Notes: generated by a model not told the origin, from the sequence alone. DNA of 38,558 nucleotides from Elusimicrobiota bacterium (GCA_040757695.1 JBFLWK010000017.1:1-38558), one strand, 5' to 3'. Shown: positions 12,441 through 28,754, counted from the stretch's first letter. Numbers and translations: made by a program.

Positions 12441-13211
12441 TTATGGTTGATAAGGGATTAGGAGTTCTGTATCTTTAACCACTTTACCGGAGTTATCAAT
12501 TTTATCAGGGTTGAGTTGCCGAATTTTATCGGTATGTTCTTCAGTTCCCAGGAACTTTTTTACGATTTCAGATATATTCTCTTCGCCAGTTGTTTTATAG
12601 TAGATAAATCTTTTTGGTAATTCTTTTTTAATTCGCATAATACAGATTTCAATCCGTCTATTTTTTGCTCTATCTTGTTCAGTTTTATTTGATGCGACTG
12701 GATTAAACTCGCCATAACCACGAACCTGCAATCGTTTAGGTTCAAGCCCGTTTTTGAGCAGTTCACTACCGACGCTCCAGCCTCGTGCTGCGGACAGAAA
12801 CCAGTTATCTTTATACTTACCGCCGTATAGAGGTTTAGAGTCCGCATGACCTGCCACAATAATCTCGCCTGGTATTTGTTGTAATTCCGGTATAAGTTCC
12901 TGTAATATTTTTACAAATTCAGGTTTAAGTTCTGCGGATGCCGGCTTAAAAATTATATCTTGTGATAGTGTAACATTTATTCTATCAATAGATACATTTA
13001 CTTTACCGAACTGCTGTAATTTTTTCACAATCAGCATATTTTCTGAAACTTGGGTTGCTTTCTGGTATGCTTGGGTTAATGCGAACAGCAGCAAGAAAAA
13101 CATCATCAGGTTTGTCATCATATCACCGTAAGATACAATCCACATATTCGGGTCTAATTCAGCTGACTCGCCAAATCGTCTGCCAAAAAATACTGTTTTT
13201 TTAGTTCTCAT
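12441..13211 (-). CDS. MotB-like stator protein 2 (OmpA domain plus LysM-like tail)
   Basis: 256 residues. The membrane helix near residues 25-48 carries the proton- or sodium-binding aspartate in YGDMMTNLMMFFLLLFAL. An OmpA/MotB peptidoglycan-binding domain follows (GHADSKPLYGGKYKDNWFLSAARGWSVG, then RVQVRGYGE-like and NRRIEI segments). The last 50 residues resemble a degenerate LysM (NISEIVKKFLG, IRQLNPDKI, LLIPYQP). It overlaps the upstream MotB-like gene by 4 bases. Presumed role: anchoring an ion-driven stator to the cell wall. Two different MotB proteins with one MotA suggest a mixed dimer. Confidence 0.88.
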   Translation of the reverse strand: MRTKKTVFFGRRFGESAELDPNMWIVSYGDMMTNLMMFFLLLFALTQAYQKATQVSENMLIVKKLQQFGKVNVSIDRINVTLSQDIIFKPASAELKPEFVKILQELIPELQQIPGEIIVAGHADSKPLYGGKYKDNWFLSAARGWSVGSELLKNGLEPKRLQVRGYGEFNPVASNKTEQDRAKNRRIEICIMRIKKELPKRFIYYKTTGEENISEIVKKFLGTEEHTDKIRQLNPDKIDNSGKVVKDTELLIPYQP

Positions 13212-13852
13212 AGTTCGTCTTTATAGAGGATATACAATTCTATTCGGCGGTTTAACGCTCTATGCTGTGCTGTATTATTTGGATATAGTGGCTGGTATTC
13301 GCCGTAGCCGGCTACTGACAGTCGTTTCGGGTTGATACCTTTTTTCTGAAAGAATTTTACAACACTGCGTGCTCTATCTAATGACAGTTCCCAGTTAGAC
13401 GAGTATCTCAATTCCCGTTTGATTGGTATATTATCCGTATGTCCTTCTATAATAACTTTATATGGCACATCAGAAAGCCAGGTAGCCAGTTTTTCAAGTG
13501 GCTGTTTTGTTTGTTCTTTCAAGACCGCGCTACCTAAATCAAACAGTACAGGTGTATCAAACACGATTCGGATACCTTGTGCTGTAGTTTCTGTTTTGAT
13601 TATTTTTTCAAAATCAGGCGGTATTTGTTGTTCTTTTTTTACTATTTTTATATCCAGTCTACCTCTACCAAAAGTTGTCACAAAACTCATCTGTGCAATA
13701 CGCTGGGTTTCCAGTGTTGCTCGGGTTAACGCCCATAGCATCAAAAAGAACAGCATCAGGTTTGTCATCATATCAGAATAGATAGTAAGCCAGATTGGTG
13801 TTGTTGCGCGTTCTCCACCCCAGAAGGTAATTTTTTTGAATTTTTTTTCCAT
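13208..13852 (-). CDS. MotB-like stator protein 1
   Basis: 214 residues. A short basic N-terminus precedes a single helix (about 20-42) with the conserved aspartate in YSDMMTNLMLFFLMLWAL. A plug/linker region and an OmpA-like domain follow (IIEGHTDNIPIKRELRYSSN, LSLDRARSVVKFF, LSVAGYGEYQP, RALNRRIELYIL). Length and layout are those of MotB, somewhat shorter than E. coli MotB. It lies 66 bases after motA and overlaps the second MotB gene as ATGA, so the three are surely one unit. Confidence 0.9.
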   Translation of the reverse strand: MEKKFKKITFWGGERATTPIWLTIYSDMMTNLMLFFLMLWALTRATLETQRIAQMSFVTTFGRGRLDIKIVKKEQQIPPDFEKIIKTETTAQGIRIVFDTPVLFDLGSAVLKEQTKQPLEKLATWLSDVPYKVIIEGHTDNIPIKRELRYSSNWELSLDRARSVVKFFQKKGINPKRLSVAGYGEYQPLYPNNTAQHRALNRRIELYILYKDEL

Positions 13853-13918: not shown

Positions 13919-14677
13919 TTATTTTCTTGTTCTGTATGCGAGATATGCTGCCAGTTTTTTTCGTAAGATAAGCGGAATATCACCTGCTTGGATTGATAGT
14001 ATTCCTTCAATAACGACTTCTTTAGATAGAATTTCAGATTCTGATAGTGCATTCAGTTTTGATGCGATTGGCAGGAACACAAAATTAGTTGAAAAGATTC
14101 CATAGAAAGTTGTAGTTACAGCGATTGCCATAGATGCGCCCATTGTTTTTGGGTCTGCGAGATTTTTGAGCACCTGGACTACGCCGATAAGTGTACCTAA
14201 AAGCCCGAAGATAGGTGCGAGTGTGCCCATAGTTCTAAACACGCCTGCGTTTGCGTTGTGGCGTCTACGGATAAAAACGATTTCAGTTTCTAAATTGTCT
14301 CGGATTAAATCCGGTGCCAACCCATCAATCAGCATTTGCAGTCCTTCTTTCAAAAATCTATCTTCCATTGATGGAATATCTTCCTGTAAAGAATCCACAC
14401 CGGTTCTTTTTGCTTTTTCGCAGAGCATAATCAACTGGTTAATTATAATTTCAGGTTGCTGTCTGACTTTTTTAGGGAATAATACAAACAGTGATGCTCG
14501 CAGTGCAGTTTTTAGTTGTGTCCACGGCACACCAATTAGTACTGCACCCGATGTGCCACCAAACACAAGCACAGCGGCTAAAGGATTTATCAATAATTCT
14601 ACAATCCCGCCATGATACATTACATAATAAACCGCACTAAACCCAATTACTAACCCAACTATTGTTAGAATATCCAC
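13919..14677 (-). CDS. motA: MotA-like stator channel protein
   Basis: 252 residues with four membrane helices (about 2-20, 30-50, 150-172, 183-205). The conserved segments MGTLAPIFGLLGTLIGVV and TTTFYGIFSTNFVFLPIASKL contain the two functional prolines of MotA. The cytoplasmic loop keeps charged residues (ETEIVFIRRRHN) of the kind that face FliG. Start is GTG at 14677, MDILTIVGLVIG. With MotB it should form an ion channel that turns ion flow into torque. The FliG-like partner is encoded just upstream. Confidence 0.92.
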   Translation of the reverse strand: MDILTIVGLVIGFSAVYYVMYHGGIVELLINPLAAVLVFGGTSGAVLIGVPWTQLKTALRASLFVLFPKKVRQQPEIIINQLIMLCEKAKRTGVDSLQEDIPSMEDRFLKEGLQMLIDGLAPDLIRDNLETEIVFIRRRHNANAGVFRTMGTLAPIFGLLGTLIGVVQVLKNLADPKTMGASMAIAVTTTFYGIFSTNFVFLPIASKLNALSESEILSKEVVIEGILSIQAGDIPLILRKKLAAYLAYRTRK

Positions 14678-14685
14678 TTTAAGTT

Positions 14686-14760
14686 TTTTGAGTTTATTGA
14701 GTTCATTGAGTTCATTTGGTTTTCAACTCAACAAACCCAATAAACCCAACAAACGCAACT
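14686..14760. repeat. Inverted short tandem arrays between motA and the FliF-FliG gene
   Basis: GAGTTTATTGAGTTCATTGA units on the left and CAACAAACCCAATAAACCCA units on the right are inverted relative to each other around TTTTC, making a roughly 75-base imperfect hairpin in the leader of motA. Confidence 0.75.
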
Positions 14761-14766
14761 AACCCG

Positions 14767-16719
14767 TTATATTCCTCTTTCTTTTCTTAATCGTTCTTTT
14801 ATTCTTGCAAGTCGTTCCTCTCTGGTTTCTGTATTTAGTTCTTCGGGTGCGAGTGTTTGTTCCTCAACTGATGGAGTCAGGATAGGTTCTGTTTCTTCTT
14901 CTGTTGGTGTTGGAACTGGCTCTATTTCTTCAGGTGGTGGTGGTTTCTGTCGGAGTTGTTCTTTTATTCTTGCGAGTCGTTTTTCTCTGGGTTCTGTCTT
15001 TAATTCCTCAGGAGCGGGTGGGGAGGAAGGTTGTTCCTCAACTGACGGAGTCAGGATAGGTTCTGTTTCATCTTCTGTTAGTGTTGGGACTGGCTCTATT
15101 TCTTCAGGTGGTGGTGGTTTCTGTCGGAGTCGTTCTTTTATTCTTGCGAGTCGTTTTTCTCTGGTTTCTGTTTCTGTTTTCTCTTTCTCTATTGTAATTC
15201 CAGATTCTTGTTTTACTTCTGGTTGTTTTTCTTGAGGTATCTCGCCACCCTTTTCTCCCTTAACAATTGTAATTCTGCCCTCATTTCTGAACCGTCTCAT
15301 TATAAGTATAATTTTTCGTTCTTCTTCGTTAATTCTTATCTGTGGAACCATCTGGTTAAGTTCTATTTCCTGTTTTAACATTTCAGCGGCGCCCTGTGGT
15401 AGTGTTTTCAGTATTTTTTCGCGTGTAGATTTGTTTGCTGCTTTCAACCCGATTGCCCATGATGGTAGTGGTATCTCTCTGAAAAGTATCCTTAACCCAA
15501 TAGAATCAATATAGTTCAAATCATTTATCTCAAGCAGTTGTGATTTAACCTGTTCAAATAGTTGCGGATTTGAGACAGCTAATGCAGACAAAATATGTTC
15601 TGCGGTTTGTTTATCAGACCGTTCACAGAGTTCAATAATTTCCGCAGCACCGCCAATAAGGTAATCAATTTTCTTTTTAAGTTCTAACTCCATTATTTCA
15701 ACATCATCAGGTTCAAGTTGTTTTACAGAGCCAAGTTCAACTGCTACTTTTGATTGTAAGTCAGCAGGTAGTTGTGATAACACAAACGATGCCCAGTCAC
15801 TTTTCAGATAACTTAACACCAGTGCTACTCTTTCTGGTGATTCATCTTTTAACAGATATGCCAGGTTTCTGATGTTGCCTTCATTAACAAACGAAAACAG
15901 TTTTGGCTTACCCGATTTTCCGTCGTCAAGCGACATTACAAGCGACCCACCGCCGACACCACCGCCACCGCCGGCTGGTTGTCGTGGTATCAAATTATCC
16001 AAAGAAGGTGTTGGTGTAGCAGGTTTAGTAGAGAGTGTGCTAACGAGATGTTTAAAAAATACATTCAGCGGTCCAAACAAAAAATATGCAAATAAAAGGA
16101 CTCCTGATATCCACAGAACTGACGGCAAAGTTGCGATTGTTTGCCACCATGGTATATTTTTTTTATAAAATTCGGTTTTTTCAATTACCAGCGAATCACC
16201 CCGTGTGGTATTAAAATTAACAAGCCCTGTAATTAGTTTTCGTGCTTCTGCGACAATCGTATCGGGTATAGTTCTATCAAATTTTATTGTGACAGTAATT
16301 TTTTTGATAAACTTTTTTAATGTTTCTATTTCTTTTTCAGCCGGTGGCACAATCACCTGCACAGGTGCTGCTGCTGGTTTCTTTTGTTCTTCTTCTAACA
16401 GGTTTTTTTTGGTTGGTACACCTGGCAGGATATAGTCCTTAGTAATTTTTTTTGTTTCTGCTGGTGAAGTTAATTGTTCAATTTGAAGTTTTTCTCTTGG
16501 TTTTGCTTTTGCCAGTTCTTCTATAATTGGCTCTATATTTACGATAACGATAAAATCCTGTGGGCTTAATAATTTAGAAAGTGCGTCTGTTATTCGTTTT
16601 TCAATATTGGTTTCCAGTGTTAGTTTTTCACGGTCTATGTTATCAACACTGTAAAGTAAAGTGTAAAGTGTGAAGTGTAAAGTGTAAAGTAAAAAAAGGT
16701 ATGTACATATTTTTTTCAT
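14767..16719 (-). CDS. FliF-FliG hybrid: periplasmic FliF C-terminal domain, membrane helix, FliG domains
   Basis: 650 residues. Signal-like segment 1-24. Residues 26-190 resemble the C-terminal periplasmic part of FliF, ending in the hallmark NFNTTRGDSLVIEKTEFY. A membrane helix follows at about 199-220, then a glycine-rich linker. Residues about 265-490 match the FliG middle and C-terminal domains: ESPERVALVLSYL at the EHPQ position, LPADLQSKVAVELG, GGAAEIIELCERSDK, DSIGLRILFREI, and LIMRRFRNEGRI. The tail carries three copies of a module with RLARIKERLRQKPPPPEEI. FliF ring-building N-terminal domains are absent. Presumed role: rotor or stator contact protein placed in the inner membrane beside MotAB. 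Family match is by eye; the fusion is in one uninterrupted frame. Confidence 0.8.
   Translation of the reverse strand: MKKICTYLFLLYTLHFTLYTLLYSVDNIDREKLTLETNIEKRITDALSKLLSPQDFIVIVNIEPIIEELAKAKPREKLQIEQLTSPAETKKITKDYILPGVPTKKNLLEEEQKKPAAAPVQVIVPPAEKEIETLKKFIKKITVTIKFDRTIPDTIVAEARKLITGLVNFNTTRGDSLVIEKTEFYKKNIPWWQTIATLPSVLWISGVLLFAYFLFGPLNVFFKHLVSTLSTKPATPTPSLDNLIPRQPAGGGGGVGGGSLVMSLDDGKSGKPKLFSFVNEGNIRNLAYLLKDESPERVALVLSYLKSDWASFVLSQLPADLQSKVAVELGSVKQLEPDDVEIMELELKKKIDYLIGGAAEIIELCERSDKQTAEHILSALAVSNPQLFEQVKSQLLEINDLNYIDSIGLRILFREIPLPSWAIGLKAANKSTREKILKTLPQGAAEMLKQEIELNQMVPQIRINEEERKIILIMRRFRNEGRITIVKGEKGGEIPQEKQPEVKQESGITIEKEKTETETREKRLARIKERLRQKPPPPEEIEPVPTLTEDETEPILTPSVEEQPSSPPAPEELKTEPREKRLARIKEQLRQKPPPPEEIEPVPTPTEEETEPILTPSVEEQTLAPEELNTETREERLARIKERLRKERGI
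16648..16691. repeat. GTGTAAA tandem tract encoding a signal-peptide core
   Basis: GTAAAGTAAAGTGTAAAGTGTGAAGTGTAAAGTG-type units encode the hydrophobic core LYTLHFTLYTLLYS of the FliF-FliG hybrid. Confidence 0.8.
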
Positions 16720-16725
16720 TTTGTA

Positions 16726-17574
16726 TCATTTTGGTTCTTCTTCTGTTGATCTTTCTTCAGCCAGTGATGTATTTGCTGATTTTATCATTGCATCTACTTC
16801 CTGTTTCCATTTATCTATTTCTATATCACCCAGACGTCGTTGCCATGATTTTTCGTTTGAATCAAGCGTATCTTTCAACGCCTGAATTTCTCTATCTTTT
16901 GCAAAGATTTGTTCTTTGTACTCAAGTTCTAGTTCTTTCATTCGGTCGCCTGCTTTTTTCAATTCTTCTTCTAATTGATTCCGTCTATCACGCACAATCT
17001 GTATTTCTGATTCACCCTTTTGATATTCTGCTTCCCATTCTTTGATTTTTTTCTCCATCTCACGTTTCAGCACATTAAAATCTTTCTCTTTCATCTGCAG
17101 GATTTCATCCCATTTGTTCTGCTCGTCTTGCAGTCGGCTTTTGATCAGCGATGATTCTTCTTCTAATTTCCGAATTGTTGTATGCAATGTTTCTATTTTA
17201 ACATTCTGCTCGTCTATTTGTTTCTCATAATTCAGTTTCTGTTCTGTCATTCTTTTCTGCTGTGTATCAATTTCGGTTTCTTTGCCTGCGAGCAGGTTCT
17301 GTAATTGTTTAGTTAGACTTTCTAAAGACCGTATATTTTCTAAATGCTCGTTTATAGTCCGTTCTGATTTTTTCGCTTTTTCTTGCAGGTCAAAATTCAG
17401 AACATCAATCTGTGCCTTGAGTGATTTTATCTCTTTATCTTTAGCATCCAGTTCTTTAGAAAACCGCTCTCGCTGTCGTGCAAGTTCTAATGCAAACGAC
17501 TGCTTGACCGAATCCATCGTGCTTCTTAACGCGATAACCTTATCTTTTTCTTGTGCTGTTTTTTCCTGAGCCAT
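16726..17574 (-). CDS. Cytoplasmic long coiled-coil protein of the motor cluster
   Basis: 282 residues, almost entirely charged heptads (for example KELDAKDKEIKSLKAQ and MKELELEYKEQIFAKD), with no signal peptide or membrane helix. This indicates a long rod, probably dimeric. A perfect AAGGAGG stands 9 bases before ATG 17574. It ends 6 bases before the FliF-FliG gene. No family recognised. By position it could link the FliG-like part to other motor proteins, or act as a scaffold. Confidence 0.8.
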   Translation of the reverse strand: MAQEKTAQEKDKVIALRSTMDSVKQSFALELARQRERFSKELDAKDKEIKSLKAQIDVLNFDLQEKAKKSERTINEHLENIRSLESLTKQLQNLLAGKETEIDTQQKRMTEQKLNYEKQIDEQNVKIETLHTTIRKLEEESSLIKSRLQDEQNKWDEILQMKEKDFNVLKREMEKKIKEWEAEYQKGESEIQIVRDRRNQLEEELKKAGDRMKELELEYKEQIFAKDREIQALKDTLDSNEKSWQRRLGDIEIDKWKQEVDAMIKSANTSLAEERSTEEEPK

Positions 17575-17652: not shown

Positions 17653-17988
17653 TTAGCTTACCTGTTGTTGAATCAATTCTCCAAACCCTTTTTTCATAAT
17701 CTCTTGGTTTTGCTTCAGAAATTCAACTATGTCCTGATGTTGCTGCATTGCCTCTTTGTGCCTCTGTTCTGCTCTTTCGTCCATTTTTCTAAAGCCTTCA
17801 TCCATTCTTCTAAAGCCTTCATCCATTCTTCTAAAACCTTCATCCATTTTAGAACCAATCAGCCTGAATCCTTCATCTAACTTGTTCAACACTCTGCCAT
17901 TCTGCTTTAATACCCTGAACAAGACAATTGACGGATAAGCGCCAAGAAATGCAAAGTATAAAGCAAACATCAATTGTGCCAAGGTCAT
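17653..17988 (-). CDS. Small membrane-anchored heptad-repeat protein
   Basis: 111 residues. An N-terminal membrane helix (about 5-25, LAQLMFALYFAFLGAYPSIVLF) is followed by four near-perfect copies of MDEGFRR and a coiled-coil tail with HQDIVEFLKQNQEIM. The DNA of the repeats is a 21-base unit (about 17780-17850). GAGGTGG lies before ATG 17988. A strong promoter stands at 18034-18062. No family recognised; probably a membrane-tethered partner of the neighbouring coiled-coil protein. Confidence 0.8.
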   Translation of the reverse strand: MTLAQLMFALYFAFLGAYPSIVLFRVLKQNGRVLNKLDEGFRLIGSKMDEGFRRMDEGFRRMDEGFRKMDERAEQRHKEAMQQHQDIVEFLKQNQEIMKKGFGELIQQQVS

Positions 17989-22232: not shown

Positions 22233-23750
22233 TTAGATAGGTAATTTTACTGTGAATGTTGCGCCTTTTTTTTCGCCTTCGCTTGAAACCATCACGGTGC
22301 CGTTATGGCGTTGAACAATCCCGTAAGAAATAGCGAGTCCTAACCCGGTTCCTTTACCGGGTTCTTTTGTTGTAAAAAACGGTGTAAAAATTTTGTCTAT
22401 ATTCGCTTTAGGAATCCCTATGCCTGTATCTTTGAATGAAACCAAGATACAAGAAGTAAGAGGCAAGATGTCAGATTCTAACTTCTGATTTCTTGCTTCT
22501 TGACTCTTGCTTCTTGCTTCTGTTGTGATTGTCAACGTGCCACCAGCCGGCATAGAATGTATTGCATTTGTAATTATATTCAGGAAGACCTGCTGGATAT
22601 GTGGTATAGAAACTTTTAGTTTTGGGATATTTGTTCTATAATTTCTGATGATATGAATATTTGAAGCAGCGATATCAGAGGAACAGATTTCAAGCGATGA
22701 ATCAACCACTTTAGAGATATCAGTAGGTTCAAAATAGTAATCCTTCTGTCGTGCAAAATCTAAAAGCCCTTTTGTTATTTTTCGGCATCGTTCTGCCGCA
22801 CGTGTAATTTTTTCAAGTGTATCTCTTAACGGGTCGGCTTGTGGTAATTTTTCAAGTATTATCTGGGACTGACCTAAAACGCCGGTTAATGGATTATTAA
22901 GTTCGTGTGCGATACCGCCTGCAAGTTGACCTAAAGAAGCCATTCGGTCCATTTGTATAATTTGTGTTTCTTTCACTTTTAAGTTTTGTGCCATTTTATT
23001 AAACGCATCAGCCAATAGTGTTAGTTCATTATTTTTACCGCCAGAAAGTTGTATCTCGGAATTAAAATTACCTGCACCTATTCTGGCAGCGCCTTCTTTA
23101 AGTTTGGTTAATGGATGCGAGATAGACCGAAACAGAATAACTGATAGAATCGCTGCAAGTACAACTGCGAGCACAGAGAATCCGGCAGATATCAAAAAGT
23201 TTATTTTCGCTATTACTAATGATTTTGTTTCTGCTGACTTAAATGCTTTTAGTTTTGTTTGATAGATACAGGCAAGTTCAGTTTTTAGTTTATTAAAATG
23301 TGGCAGTATATTTTCGTCAACTGCTGAAAGCACTTTTGTTTTTCCTCTACTACCACTCTCATAGATAGCGAAGCTATTTTTCCATTTTGTAGTAAGCAGT
23401 TCACTATTTTCGGCTATTTCCAGAAAACTATTATATTCCGTCTTGCTGACTTTGAAATTTTTTAATTCGTTGATATAATTATTTGTTTTTTCAGTTAACA
23501 ACTTTGAGTATTCTAAAAACCTGTTTTTTTCTGATATATCTGACAGAACAAGATAGAAATCATATGCAGATGCAGATTTTTCAAGATAGTACTGTATCTC
23601 GCGGATACCTGCACTGAATGAATAATTCTGTACCGATTGTCTGAGATAGTATCGCTGTGCTTTACCCTGGACAAATAAAATGATTGCCATAATCCCAACG
23701 ATAGCAATCATCAATGAAAAAGAACCAATCAGTCGGTTTTTTATGGTCAT
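22233..23750 (-). CDS. Membrane sensor histidine kinase with HAMP domain
   Basis: 505 residues. Membrane helices at about 10-28 and 180-205 bracket a periplasmic helical sensor. HAMP follows ([21 protein letters not shown]), then HisKA with the phospho-acceptor in [20 protein letters not shown], and the ATPase domain with N box ([12 protein letters not shown]), G1 ([10 protein letters not shown]) and G2 ([11 protein letters not shown]). The segment [20 protein letters not shown] before G1 is encoded by an inverted AAGAAGCAAG-type repeat (22443-22521) inserted in frame. The likely partner is the response regulator at 19396-19773. Confidence 0.94.
22443..22521. repeat. Inverted AAGAAGCAAGA-type arrays inside the kinase gene
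   Basis: Left units such as CAAGATACAAGAAGTAAGA face right units TTCTTGCTTCTTGACTCTTG around TTCTAACTTCTG. The insert lies between conserved boxes of the ATPase domain and keeps the frame. Confidence 0.8.
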
Positions 23751-26066: not shown

Positions 26067-28754
26067 TTATTTCGCTACCACCACAGTTCCGTTAACCACT
26101 TTCCCATCTGCTTCTATTTGATATATATAGATGCCTGAGGGCACCGCTTTACCATCTTTCTTACCATCCCATCTTAACGAATCGCCAGTATCACCTTTTA
26201 TCATATCTGATACGAATGCGCCGTTGATATCATACACCTTGCCTGAAATACCGGTATCGTTACCTTCATACACAAAATTAACAACATCATTCCAGCCGTC
26301 ACCGTTAGGCGAGAATATTCTTGGATATACACTTGTAAGTGCAAACTTTTGAGACCGCAACGACTGACGAAGTTGATATTTACCGCCTTTCTTGGTCTTC
26401 ACAGAAACCGTCTGCTGTTGAGTATCCACCTCACCGCCGACTTTTATCCATTCTACACCATTATACCAGAATAGTGCGAGATTATCGGTTGCCTTATCCG
26501 CAGTGATTGGTGCGTGTGCAGGTGCGCCAACAATTCCACCTGAAACTTCATATGATATCTTTATATCCGCAAGCGCTCTGGAGAATAGCAGCCCTGTAAC
26601 AACTTCCTGGCTGCTGGCTTTTCTAGGCAGGAATGTGTATGCCCTTAACACCTTGCCTTTCTCGTCGTCAGTCAGCCGAACAATATCAAAATATACATCA
26701 TCACCAAACGAGTTGTTTTCTTTATAAATGATGCTGTTGATTGTTGGTGGGATTGCGATATTGGTCTTAGGTGCGGTTTCATTACAGAAGTAAATATTCG
26801 CATATGAGTCAGTCATTGCAGACCGGTGTGATTCGTTTTCTGATAAATCCCAGCAGGTTAGCCAGTAGTAATATGTTTGTCCACCTGTATAAATGTTTGT
26901 AGAGGTAACAGTTATTGGGATTGTGAATGGGTCTCCTGGTGCATCTATCCCGGTAGAACGATACAGTGTGTACTCCTTGAGGTCAGATGAAGTTGTGCCG
27001 TCGGTTGATTTGGTAACCGCAGTCCATCTGATTGTTATAGAATTGCGGTCGGTTGAAAGCGCTACTCTTATACCTCTTGGCTCTCTCGGTGGTATCTGGT
27101 CTGCAGCTGGCGGTGCGATACAGGAAGTAGATGCTGCTGTAGAATAGTTCGGTCTTAAATCATAACTGTATGCAGCATAGTAGTGATTCACACCTGATGT
27201 CAGGTTAGGATGGGTATAACTTGTTCCTGTGCCGTTATAGATTATGTAGCCACCGGTGGAATAATTAATTTCTGCAACAGGTGTAAATGTTGGTGGTGTG
27301 CCAGTAGAATATACAATCAGTGTTCCCTGATAATCAGCATCAGTCGGGTTGGTCCATGTGAGTTGTATTTCTCTACCGTTAGGCGCATAGAGTGGCTGTG
27401 CGGCAAAATTGCTAACCTGTGCAGGTGGTGTCGCATCCAATGTGAATGCCTGTGGAGAGTTAGAATATGCTGAGATTAAACCAGCATCGTCTATTGAGCG
27501 CAGGCAGAACCACCATGTAGTATCGTCTTTCAAGCCAGTGACAGTATATGACTGTGCATCACCTATGACAGTTGTAGTTGAAATAACTCTGCGGTTGGAT
27601 GAAGGTATTGAGTTCCAGGCAACATTATCCGGTATGCTACCTGAAGTTGAGAACCTGATATCGTAATAACCATTTGTTAAATTATCAAACGGTAGTTGTG
27701 GTGTTCTCGGTGCGTTTTCTGACGGAGCGAACCATTTCAGTTCAACCGAAGTGAATCCAACCTGACCTATTGAAAGACTAACAAATTCAGGTTGTTTACT
27801 ATCAACAGTAACTGTTGAAGCTCGTACATTTACACCCGAAACATCCTGATATGAGTTCCATACAGCAGTATTTGTTTGGTCATCTACTGTTTTTATAGCA
27901 AACCAGTAGGCTGTATCTGATTGTAATCCTTGAATAAGATATGACTGTTGAGAACACGGTATAACACTACTTGTTGATACAGTTATTTCTGTACCGGTTG
28001 TTTCAAAATTAGCGGCTGTTATAATCTGTGGAGCATATCTTATTCTGAAAGTACCGGTTAAGTTACCGGTAGTGCCATCATCACCGGGTGCTGTCCATTG
28101 TAATTTTATCTGGTCTTCGTATTCACCCGCAAGCGCAGTTAAGTCAGAGATTGCCGCTGGTGGAACTGTATCGCCTCTGACAGTTGCAGATGAGATATTG
28201 AACTCAACAGACATTATATGCCCGCTGTCTTCAACCCGAAGTGCGAGATAAACAACCTGATTATAATAATCGGAAGTAAATGTGATTGTTTCGGAACGCG
28301 TATAGCCGGGAGCAGGTTTGCCCTGTTCAGACCACCCCTGCGGATATTCCGATGCCTGATTCCACCACGCAGTTGTGTCATTTCCAAGTGTTGCTAATGA
28401 GTTAGTAGAAAATCTTAAATGATACGGCCATGGCATTAGAAGTTGACCATACCACGGTGGCGGGTCCTCGCCAGGCACCGTCCAGGTGAGGACAACTTCG
28501 CCTACACCAGCGCCCATTACTGATGCAATGTCGCTTACAGGTGTTGGTGGGCCCATATTCGGCCTGCAGGTCATCTGCATCGTCGCAGGATTAGCCGCAT
28601 AGAGGCAGATACATAGCGACATAGCAACATAGCAACATAGCAACATAGTAATGGCTAACTTGTTCGCCCGAGAAAGCGGGCTAAGTCGCTGAGTCGCTGA
28701 GTCGCTTAGTCGCTTAGTCGCTGACTTTAATATCTGGTTAAGTATTTTAACCAT
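26067..28754 (-). CDS. Large secreted FN3-repeat protein with FlgD-Ig C-terminus
   Basis: 895 residues. The repeated leader MVKILNQILK and a run encoded by two tandem repeats (AGTCGCTG; GCTATGTT) lead to a signal core (ITMLLCCYVAMSLCICLYAA). About five fibronectin type III domains follow, each with a recognisable strand such as VVLTWTVPGEDPP, IKLQWTAPGDDG, VELKWFAPSENAP, IQLTWTNPTDADY and ITIRWTAVTKSTD. A beta-rich region and a FlgD-Ig domain (RIFSPNGDGWNDVVNF; WDGKKDGKAVPSGIYIYQIEA) end the protein. Likely an exported surface or adhesion protein. The C-terminal domain may act as an export signal for the PorV system encoded next to it. Confidence 0.9.
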   Translation of the reverse strand: MVKILNQILKSATKRLSDSATQRLSPLSRANKLAITMLLCCYVAMSLCICLYAANPATMQMTCRPNMGPPTPVSDIASVMGAGVGEVVLTWTVPGEDPPPWYGQLLMPWPYHLRFSTNSLATLGNDTTAWWNQASEYPQGWSEQGKPAPGYTRSETITFTSDYYNQVVYLALRVEDSGHIMSVEFNISSATVRGDTVPPAAISDLTALAGEYEDQIKLQWTAPGDDGTTGNLTGTFRIRYAPQIITAANFETTGTEITVSTSSVIPCSQQSYLIQGLQSDTAYWFAIKTVDDQTNTAVWNSYQDVSGVNVRASTVTVDSKQPEFVSLSIGQVGFTSVELKWFAPSENAPRTPQLPFDNLTNGYYDIRFSTSGSIPDNVAWNSIPSSNRRVISTTTVIGDAQSYTVTGLKDDTTWWFCLRSIDDAGLISAYSNSPQAFTLDATPPAQVSNFAAQPLYAPNGREIQLTWTNPTDADYQGTLIVYSTGTPPTFTPVAEINYSTGGYIIYNGTGTSYTHPNLTSGVNHYYAAYSYDLRPNYSTAASTSCIAPPAADQIPPREPRGIRVALSTDRNSITIRWTAVTKSTDGTTSSDLKEYTLYRSTGIDAPGDPFTIPITVTSTNIYTGGQTYYYWLTCWDLSENESHRSAMTDSYANIYFCNETAPKTNIAIPPTINSIIYKENNSFGDDVYFDIVRLTDDEKGKVLRAYTFLPRKASSQEVVTGLLFSRALADIKISYEVSGGIVGAPAHAPITADKATDNLALFWYNGVEWIKVGGEVDTQQQTVSVKTKKGGKYQLRQSLRSQKFALTSVYPRIFSPNGDGWNDVVNFVYEGNDTGISGKVYDINGAFVSDMIKGDTGDSLRWDGKKDGKAVPSGIYIYQIEADGKVVNGTVVVAK
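28611..28650. repeat. ACATAGCA tandem tract encoding a signal-peptide core
   Basis: About five copies of ACATAGCA/ACATAGCG encode MLLCCYVAMSLC of the FN3 protein. Confidence 0.85.
28683..28724. repeat. AGTCGCTG tandem tract in the FN3 protein leader
   Basis: Five copies of AAGTCGCT/GAGTCGCT encode SATKRLSDSATQRLS just after MVKILNQILK. Confidence 0.85.

Follow-up and report, generated by a model that had tools for sequence, protein, structure and literature searches.

FliG and the MotAB stator form the core of the flagellar motor. In Salmonella and Vibrio, RBM3 is the domain of FliF that forms the 34-fold S-ring. The nearest natural case of a fusion between the two rotor proteins is the FliF–FliG protein of Chlamydia, which as described contains RBM2 without RBM3 and only the middle domain of FliG (FliG_M), in an organism that keeps FlhA, and which has a link to the injectisome (Bergeron 2016, PMC4768692). 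Outside the flagellum, AglQ and AglS of the AglRQS gliding motor of Myxococcus are two MotB homologues, and the review of this motor mentions no FliG (PMC9120999).

Here we describe a locus from a draft Elusimicrobiota genome (GCA_040757695.1; 2.89 Mb, 99% complete, 264 contigs) that encodes parts of both FliF and FliG in one frame beside MotA, as an earlier note on this DNA had proposed. In the window, the whole 38,558-nucleotide stretch analysed, the interval 13919–16719 holds two minus-strand genes, MotA and the hybrid (Table 1). Our data are genomic throughout and come mostly from MAGs. We read the locus, with moderate confidence, as a non-flagellar, ion-driven rotor–stator motor with a one-protein rotor, coupled to T9SS-like surface proteins and serving gliding or adhesin movement. 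Three things go beyond the earlier note: a second MotB gene, partners at the outer membrane and cell surface that resemble T9SS parts, and a phylum-wide spread with several paralogues per genome.

Table 1 Features of the hybrid locus and its gene block in the window
Feature	Position	Strand	Details and evidence
Hybrid protein, putative rotor	14767..16719	-	650 aa, ATG start; signal/TM1 – FliF RBM3 – TM2 – FliG_M – FliG_C – charged tail
Hybrid residues 1–25, signal peptide or first TM segment	16645..16719	-	Hydropathy; helix 2–23 in AlphaFold model
Hybrid residues 26–66, RBM3 first half (alpha1, beta1)	16522..16644	-	AlphaFold pLDDT about 90; hhalign to FliF RBM3
Hybrid residues 67–135, insert at FliF beta-collar position, near-invariant LPGVP motif	16315..16521	-	Low model confidence
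Hybrid residues 136–184, RBM3 second half (beta-alpha-beta), ending in NFNTTRGDSLVIEKTEF	16168..16314	-	AlphaFold, Foldseek, hhalign
Hybrid residues 198–216, membrane helix TM2, before conserved FLFGPL	16072..16128	-	Hydropathy, AlphaFold model
Hybrid residues 280–357, FliG middle domain, ESPE in place of FliM-binding EHPQ	15649..15882	-	Pfam, alignment
Hybrid residues 358–490, FliG C-terminal domain that faces the stator; residues matching K264 and D289 (E) retained, R281 (G) and R297 not retained	15250..15648	-	Pfam, alignment, Foldseek
Hybrid residues 491–650, low-confidence tail, three copies of EKRLARIKERLR-type helix	14770..15249	-	Sequence, AlphaFold model
MotA, 252 aa, flagellar-type stator A subunit	13919..14677	-	GTG start; MotA_ExbB E 9.5e-28; PRK08124 MotA 210 bits vs ExbB 18 bits
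MotB1, 214 aa: plug, channel Asp in YSDMMT, OmpA-like peptidoglycan domain	13208..13852	-	Profile matches
MotB2, 256 aa: plug, channel Asp in YGDMMT, OmpA-like domain	12441..13211	-	Profile matches
Coiled-coil protein, 282 aa, immediately upstream of hybrid	16726..17574	-	One homologue beside an orthologue (cluster cl16 at L071)
PorV-like outer-membrane barrel with TPR and LysM, 640 aa	19903..21825	-	Profile matches
Small CHU_C (T9SS type B sorting) protein, 135 aa	21822..22229	-	Profile matches
Sensor histidine kinase, part of hybrid's block	22233..23750	-	
PorP/SprF-like outer-membrane protein, 534 aa	23883..25487	-	PorP_SprF E 8.7e-11
Surface-protein candidate, 895 aa, fn3 and C-terminal T9SS type B sorting domain	26067..28754	-	Profile matches

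FliF and FliG domains of the hybrid

The FliG half of the window hybrid is recognized by Pfam as FliG_M (residues 284–352, E 2.2e-14) and FliG_C (379–485, E 7.6e-22), as the earlier note had anticipated, and by the NCBIfam FliG model TIGR00207 across residues 274–490 (E 1.2e-32); residues 273–492 can be aligned to solved FliG. FliG_N is absent ahead of FliG_M, its place being taken by the membrane helix and a linker, and a weak FliG_N match at 295–381 overlies the M–C repeats. Among 27 diverse family members, Pfam finds FliG_C in all 27, FliG_M in 26 and YscJ_FliF_C (FliF_C) in 17. Hydropathy indicates the signal or membrane segment and the second membrane helix in the same ORF, and the order signal/TM, periplasmic domain, TM, FliG is common to nearly all full-length hybrids. 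An assembly chimera was rejected, the same architecture being present in dozens of genomes.

The Pfam search that the earlier note had suggested leaves the window protein alone below threshold for YscJ_FliF_C (11.8 bits, E 0.35) and succeeds in the family, with a best E of 9.6e-8. In hhalign, the hybrid N-domain matches an alignment of 12 FliF sequences, taken from G031, a flagellate genome of the Elusimicrobiota, and from Bacillota, Thermomicrobiota, Actinomycetota and Pseudomonadota, with a probability of 97.4% and E 1.4e-11 over 149 columns, compared with at most 0.43% for 30 column-shuffled controls. Against the FliF of G031 by itself, the match falls in the RBM3 region, residues 229–383 (E 2.7e-5; 30 shuffles at most 0.83%). 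An HMM built from true flagellar FliF RBM3 alone detects 40 of 55 hybrids at E ≤ 1e-3 and none of the 55 reversed sequences. The segment NFNTTRGDSLVIEK marks the end of RBM3 in the hybrid, and in the hhalign alignment its RGD is also present at that point in FliF.

The predicted structure agrees with this assignment. The AlphaFold model of the N-domain (pLDDT about 90) has the order alpha-beta-[insert 67–135]-beta-alpha-beta, which is that of the RBM3 fold with a collar insert, here shortened; such a fold has been described for Vibrio FliF (PMC11481574). Foldseek searches with the window hybrid model return FliG structures at the top and FliF S-rings next, all with probability 1.00, and the model of a class A paralogue again returns FliG and FliF S-ring, plus TPR. 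Overall pTM is low (0.32 and 0.30 for the two models), as expected with long unstructured linkers, and the models leave the relative placement of the domains free. Sequence and model together indicate that the hybrid carries the S-ring-forming domain and may assemble into a ring through it. The earlier claim that the ring-building part of FliF is missing thus holds for RBM1 and RBM2 and fails for RBM3.

The His of the FliM-binding EHPQ motif is lost in 55 of 55 hybrids, in keeping with the absence of FliM. On the stator-facing side (residue numbers of E. coli FliG), K264 is basic in 45 of the 55, and D288 and D289 are each acidic in 40. Two of the torque residues of FliG are mostly gone: Gly replaces R281 in 44 hybrids, and R297 has been lost. 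The tail of the window hybrid contains the EKRLARIKERLR-type repeat three times with proline spacers, and the orthologues compared with it have one copy; in class A paralogues this region carries TPRs.

The hybrid family recurs across Elusimicrobiota, with up to 4–5 copies per genome, and the window's genome has four (contigs C17, C10, C1 and C28). Matches to the family also occur in genomes labelled Clostridia or bacterium (two, two and three at L090, L092 and L107), perhaps misnamed MAGs or a spread beyond the phylum. One locus (L075, 9336–10376, on G036 C15; the same as L106) encodes a stand-alone FliG-like protein of 346 aa that lacks both RBM3 and a TM segment, and FlhA is absent from its genome; in the tree this protein is placed within the class A hybrids. 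In the FliG tree, 50 of 55 hybrids cluster and five long-branched ones fall among flagellar FliG. The tree is unrooted, and a single clade for all hybrids is not rejected (p-AU 0.58) and not proven; it is compatible both with descent from a flagellum and with divergence before it, and the reduced state that the earlier note suggested for the motor is a possibility.

Flagellar genes and the MotAB stator

FliG_C was found in 59 of 199 Elusimicrobiota genomes and FlhA in one. Matches above cut-offs to FlhA, to FliF RBM1–2 (PF01514, YscJ_FliF) and to FliM/N are in each case confined to G031, a conventional flagellate with FlgG/H/I/K, FlhA, FlhB, FliF, a 355-aa FliG, MotAB and no hybrid. Its FliF region gave no match to phages by megablast. 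The window's genome gave no match to FlhA, FliF RBM1–2, FliM/N or flagellin, as the earlier note had expected for the flagellar core, and an ordinary flagellar operon was rejected on this basis. The remaining components of a complete flagellum could in principle have gone unnoticed through strong divergence, since divergent genes can evade HMMs and assemblies such as that of the window's genome are drafts. This reading was already disfavoured and we hold it to be very improbable: the FlhA, FliM/N and FliF RBM1–2 profiles succeed in G031 and in control genomes and fail in 58 FliG_C-bearing genomes, and the loss of the EHPQ His in all 55 hybrids speaks against it as well.

The stator accompanies the hybrid closely. 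MotA-type genes are present in 59 of 59 genomes with FliG_C and in 4 of 140 others (Fisher p 3e-46, a nominal value uncorrected for kinship), and the copy numbers of FliG_C and MotA per genome are correlated (Spearman 0.84) and equal in 38 of 63 genomes. The four exceptions (G038, G067, G122 and G150) have flagellar-type MotA without a FliG_C match, perhaps through missing contigs or another rotor. The window's genome has exactly four flagellar-type MotA genes (C17, C10, C88 and C28), each with MotB, and four further PF01618 genes that are ExbB/TolQ-like or weak to the MotA profile (at most 33 bits). Against the motor reading, MotA does not lie within 8 kb on the same strand at about half of the sampled loci (27 of 53, a lower bound, as loci are cut).

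The fold class of MotA and the plug, channel Asp and OmpA domain of MotB place these proteins with the flagellar-type MotAB stator. Zorya defence was rejected: there was no ZorA match, and the MotBs fit MotB models better than ZorB models. The channel Asp is kept in 13 of 13 single MotBs and in at least one MotB of all 16 tandem pairs. Within these 16 pairs it is lost from the second MotB in seven (Asn in five, Ser in one, Ala in one), from the first in one and never from both. Second MotBs with Asn, Ser or Ala include L064 6650–7417, L069 13232–14008 and L070 9121–9876, as well as L120, L122, L125 and L076; the reversed case, a first MotB without the channel Asp, is L087. This pattern suggests an asymmetric MotB1/MotB2 heterodimer stator in which one half-channel may suffice. 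Such pairs offer a natural test of how work is shared between the two half-channels of a 5:2 stator.

These stator data also bear on whether the hybrid is part of a motor at all. It could instead have a structural or sensory role in the membrane, controlling leak through MotAB or holding envelope proteins in place, as the losses at R281 and R297 and the TPR interaction domains of class A would allow. We regard this as quite improbable, since MotA accompanies FliG_C without exception, the channel Asp is retained, and the FliG_C fold is kept and matches the MotAB-bound FliG structure 8ucs. A rotor–stator pair is well supported, and a non-flagellar MotAB motor, already the proposal of the earlier note, stands as the best reading.

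T9SS-like outer-membrane and surface neighbours

From 28754 to 12441 the block of the window is ordered as T9SS-type surface protein, PorP/SprF-like barrel, histidine kinase, small CHU_C protein, PorV-like barrel with TPR and LysM, response regulator, TPR/HEAT protein, coiled coil, hybrid, MotA, MotB1 and MotB2. Its gene content is largely conserved around family members, as is the gene order. Most hybrids are preceded by a PorV-like barrel that has TPRs, and ahead of this barrel there is often a giant protein bearing a T9SS-type sorting domain. A PorV-like barrel/TPR gene is found at most 1.5 kb upstream of 40 of 53 distinct hybrids, whereas for the other genes in these loci the figure is 17 of 278 (p 8e-27, which is nominal, the loci being related). 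Of the large upstream proteins, 20 of 30 match the T9SS type A sorting domain, in a set that includes chance neighbours such as gyrase. The giant upstream protein of L076 has 2357 aa with 15 Ig and 6 invasin stretches. The 135-aa CHU_C protein is little beyond a T9SS type B sorting domain and adjoins the barrel gene across the family. A small membrane ORF with KMDEGFRRMDEGFRRMDEGFRKMDE repeats lies upstream of the coiled-coil gene at 17653–17988.

Two features of the T9SS/GldLM system, a PorV-family barrel and C-terminal sorting domains, are thus present at the hybrid loci. Weak matches identify SprA-like ORFs in 35 of 199 genomes, among them that of the window (G000, E 4.5e-8). The tie to T9SS secretion is loose, because these matches are weak and are also found in 16 genomes without a FliG_C match or hybrid. 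GldM_4th was found in 0 of 199 genomes, in a search without a positive control in which the control genomes were also matchless.

The motor might power T9SS-like protein secretion, taking the place that GldLM has in Bacteroidota, without moving the cell. The barrels and sorting domains that adjoin the hybrids, the SprA-like ORFs and the lack of GldM_4th matches would all fit. We consider secretion as the output fairly unlikely, given the hybrid-free genomes with SprA-like ORFs, the uncontrolled GldM search and the multiple paralogous motors per genome, which better match several surface tasks than a single secretion motor. It is unlikely, too, that the system is a rotary tether or appendage, in which a surface protein or fibre would be spun on the spot by the ring with no transport of adhesins along the cell. 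The geometry of FliG and MotAB is rotary, and giant repeat proteins such as that of L076 stand upstream; against this, no rod, hook or bushing protein was recognized, and surface export looks T9SS-like rather than type III.

Proposed mechanism and relation to known motors

A gliding or surface-transport motor, the reading that we prefer, would work as follows. The hybrid would assemble into a periplasmic ring through RBM3, each subunit sending one helix across the inner membrane and presenting FliG_M and FliG_C on the cytoplasmic side. MotA with MotB1 and MotB2 would be the stator, anchored to peptidoglycan by the OmpA-like domains. On contact with FliG_C the fixed MotAB would open, and ion flow would turn MotA against FliG_C and thereby the hybrid ring. 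As there is no FliM/N, export gate, rod or filament, torque would leave through the periplasmic RBM3 ring. The best candidate for a coupler is the PorV-like barrel with its periplasmic TPR, and the best candidate cargoes are the surface proteins with T9SS-type sorting domains; gliding or adhesin movement would fit best as output. We infer ring assembly, rotation, coupling and gliding from the genes and models. A fused rotor is mechanically feasible, because engineered FliF–FliG fusions form S-rings (PMC11481574) or rings (PMC6079021) and an artificial fusion, as cited in PMC4768692, rotates in Salmonella.

Our results point to an undescribed membrane motor in flagellum-less Elusimicrobiota, probably with surface movement as its output. 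Our search of open-access papers on Elusimicrobia with FliG, MotA or gliding turned up no account of this system, and an earlier mention elsewhere is possible. All its parts have known kin, and it is fairly likely that the complete machine is new. The chances are about even that Elusimicrobiota possess a gliding or surface-transport machine in which MotAB drives FliG on an S-ring without a flagellum, often with an obligate MotB1/MotB2 heterodimer, possibly with a dead half-channel, and with T9SS-like outer-membrane coupling, which would be a kind of rotary motor not seen before. If true, it would be a minimal S-ring/FliG rotor without FliM/N. The family offers a phylum-wide candidate with defined genes and partners, and it bears on the possibility that the motor existed independently of the flagellum.

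Compared with the flagellar FliF and FliG of Salmonella and Vibrio, the hybrid shares RBM3, the FliF membrane-helix order, FliG_M, FliG_C and the MotAB partner. It differs in being one polypeptide, in having no RBM1, RBM2, FliG_N, FliM/N, export gate, rod or filament, and in the lost EHPQ His. The Chlamydia protein is likewise a natural fusion in a non-flagellated bacterium, but its make-up of RBM2 and FliG_M only is not that of the hybrid, which has RBM3, FliG_M and FliG_C.

AglRQS resembles the present system in being non-flagellar and in combining a MotA homologue with two MotB homologues. The AglRQS/Glt machinery has a TolQ-class A subunit and two TolR-like B subunits with no known peptidoglycan domain, whereas the Elusimicrobiota MotA scores as flagellar MotA and both MotBs have OmpA-like peptidoglycan domains. 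With the T9SS/gliding motor of Bacteroidota (GldLM, PorV, SprF; PMC12635249) the loci share PorV- and PorP/SprF-like barrels and C-terminal sorting domains near the hybrids; the motor here is instead MotAB with an S-ring/FliG rotor, and GldM was not found in the search described above. The engineered Vibrio FliF–FliG fusion (PMC11481574; PDB 8z4d) forms an S-ring, as is predicted for the hybrid; it is man-made and joins full-length FliF and FliG.
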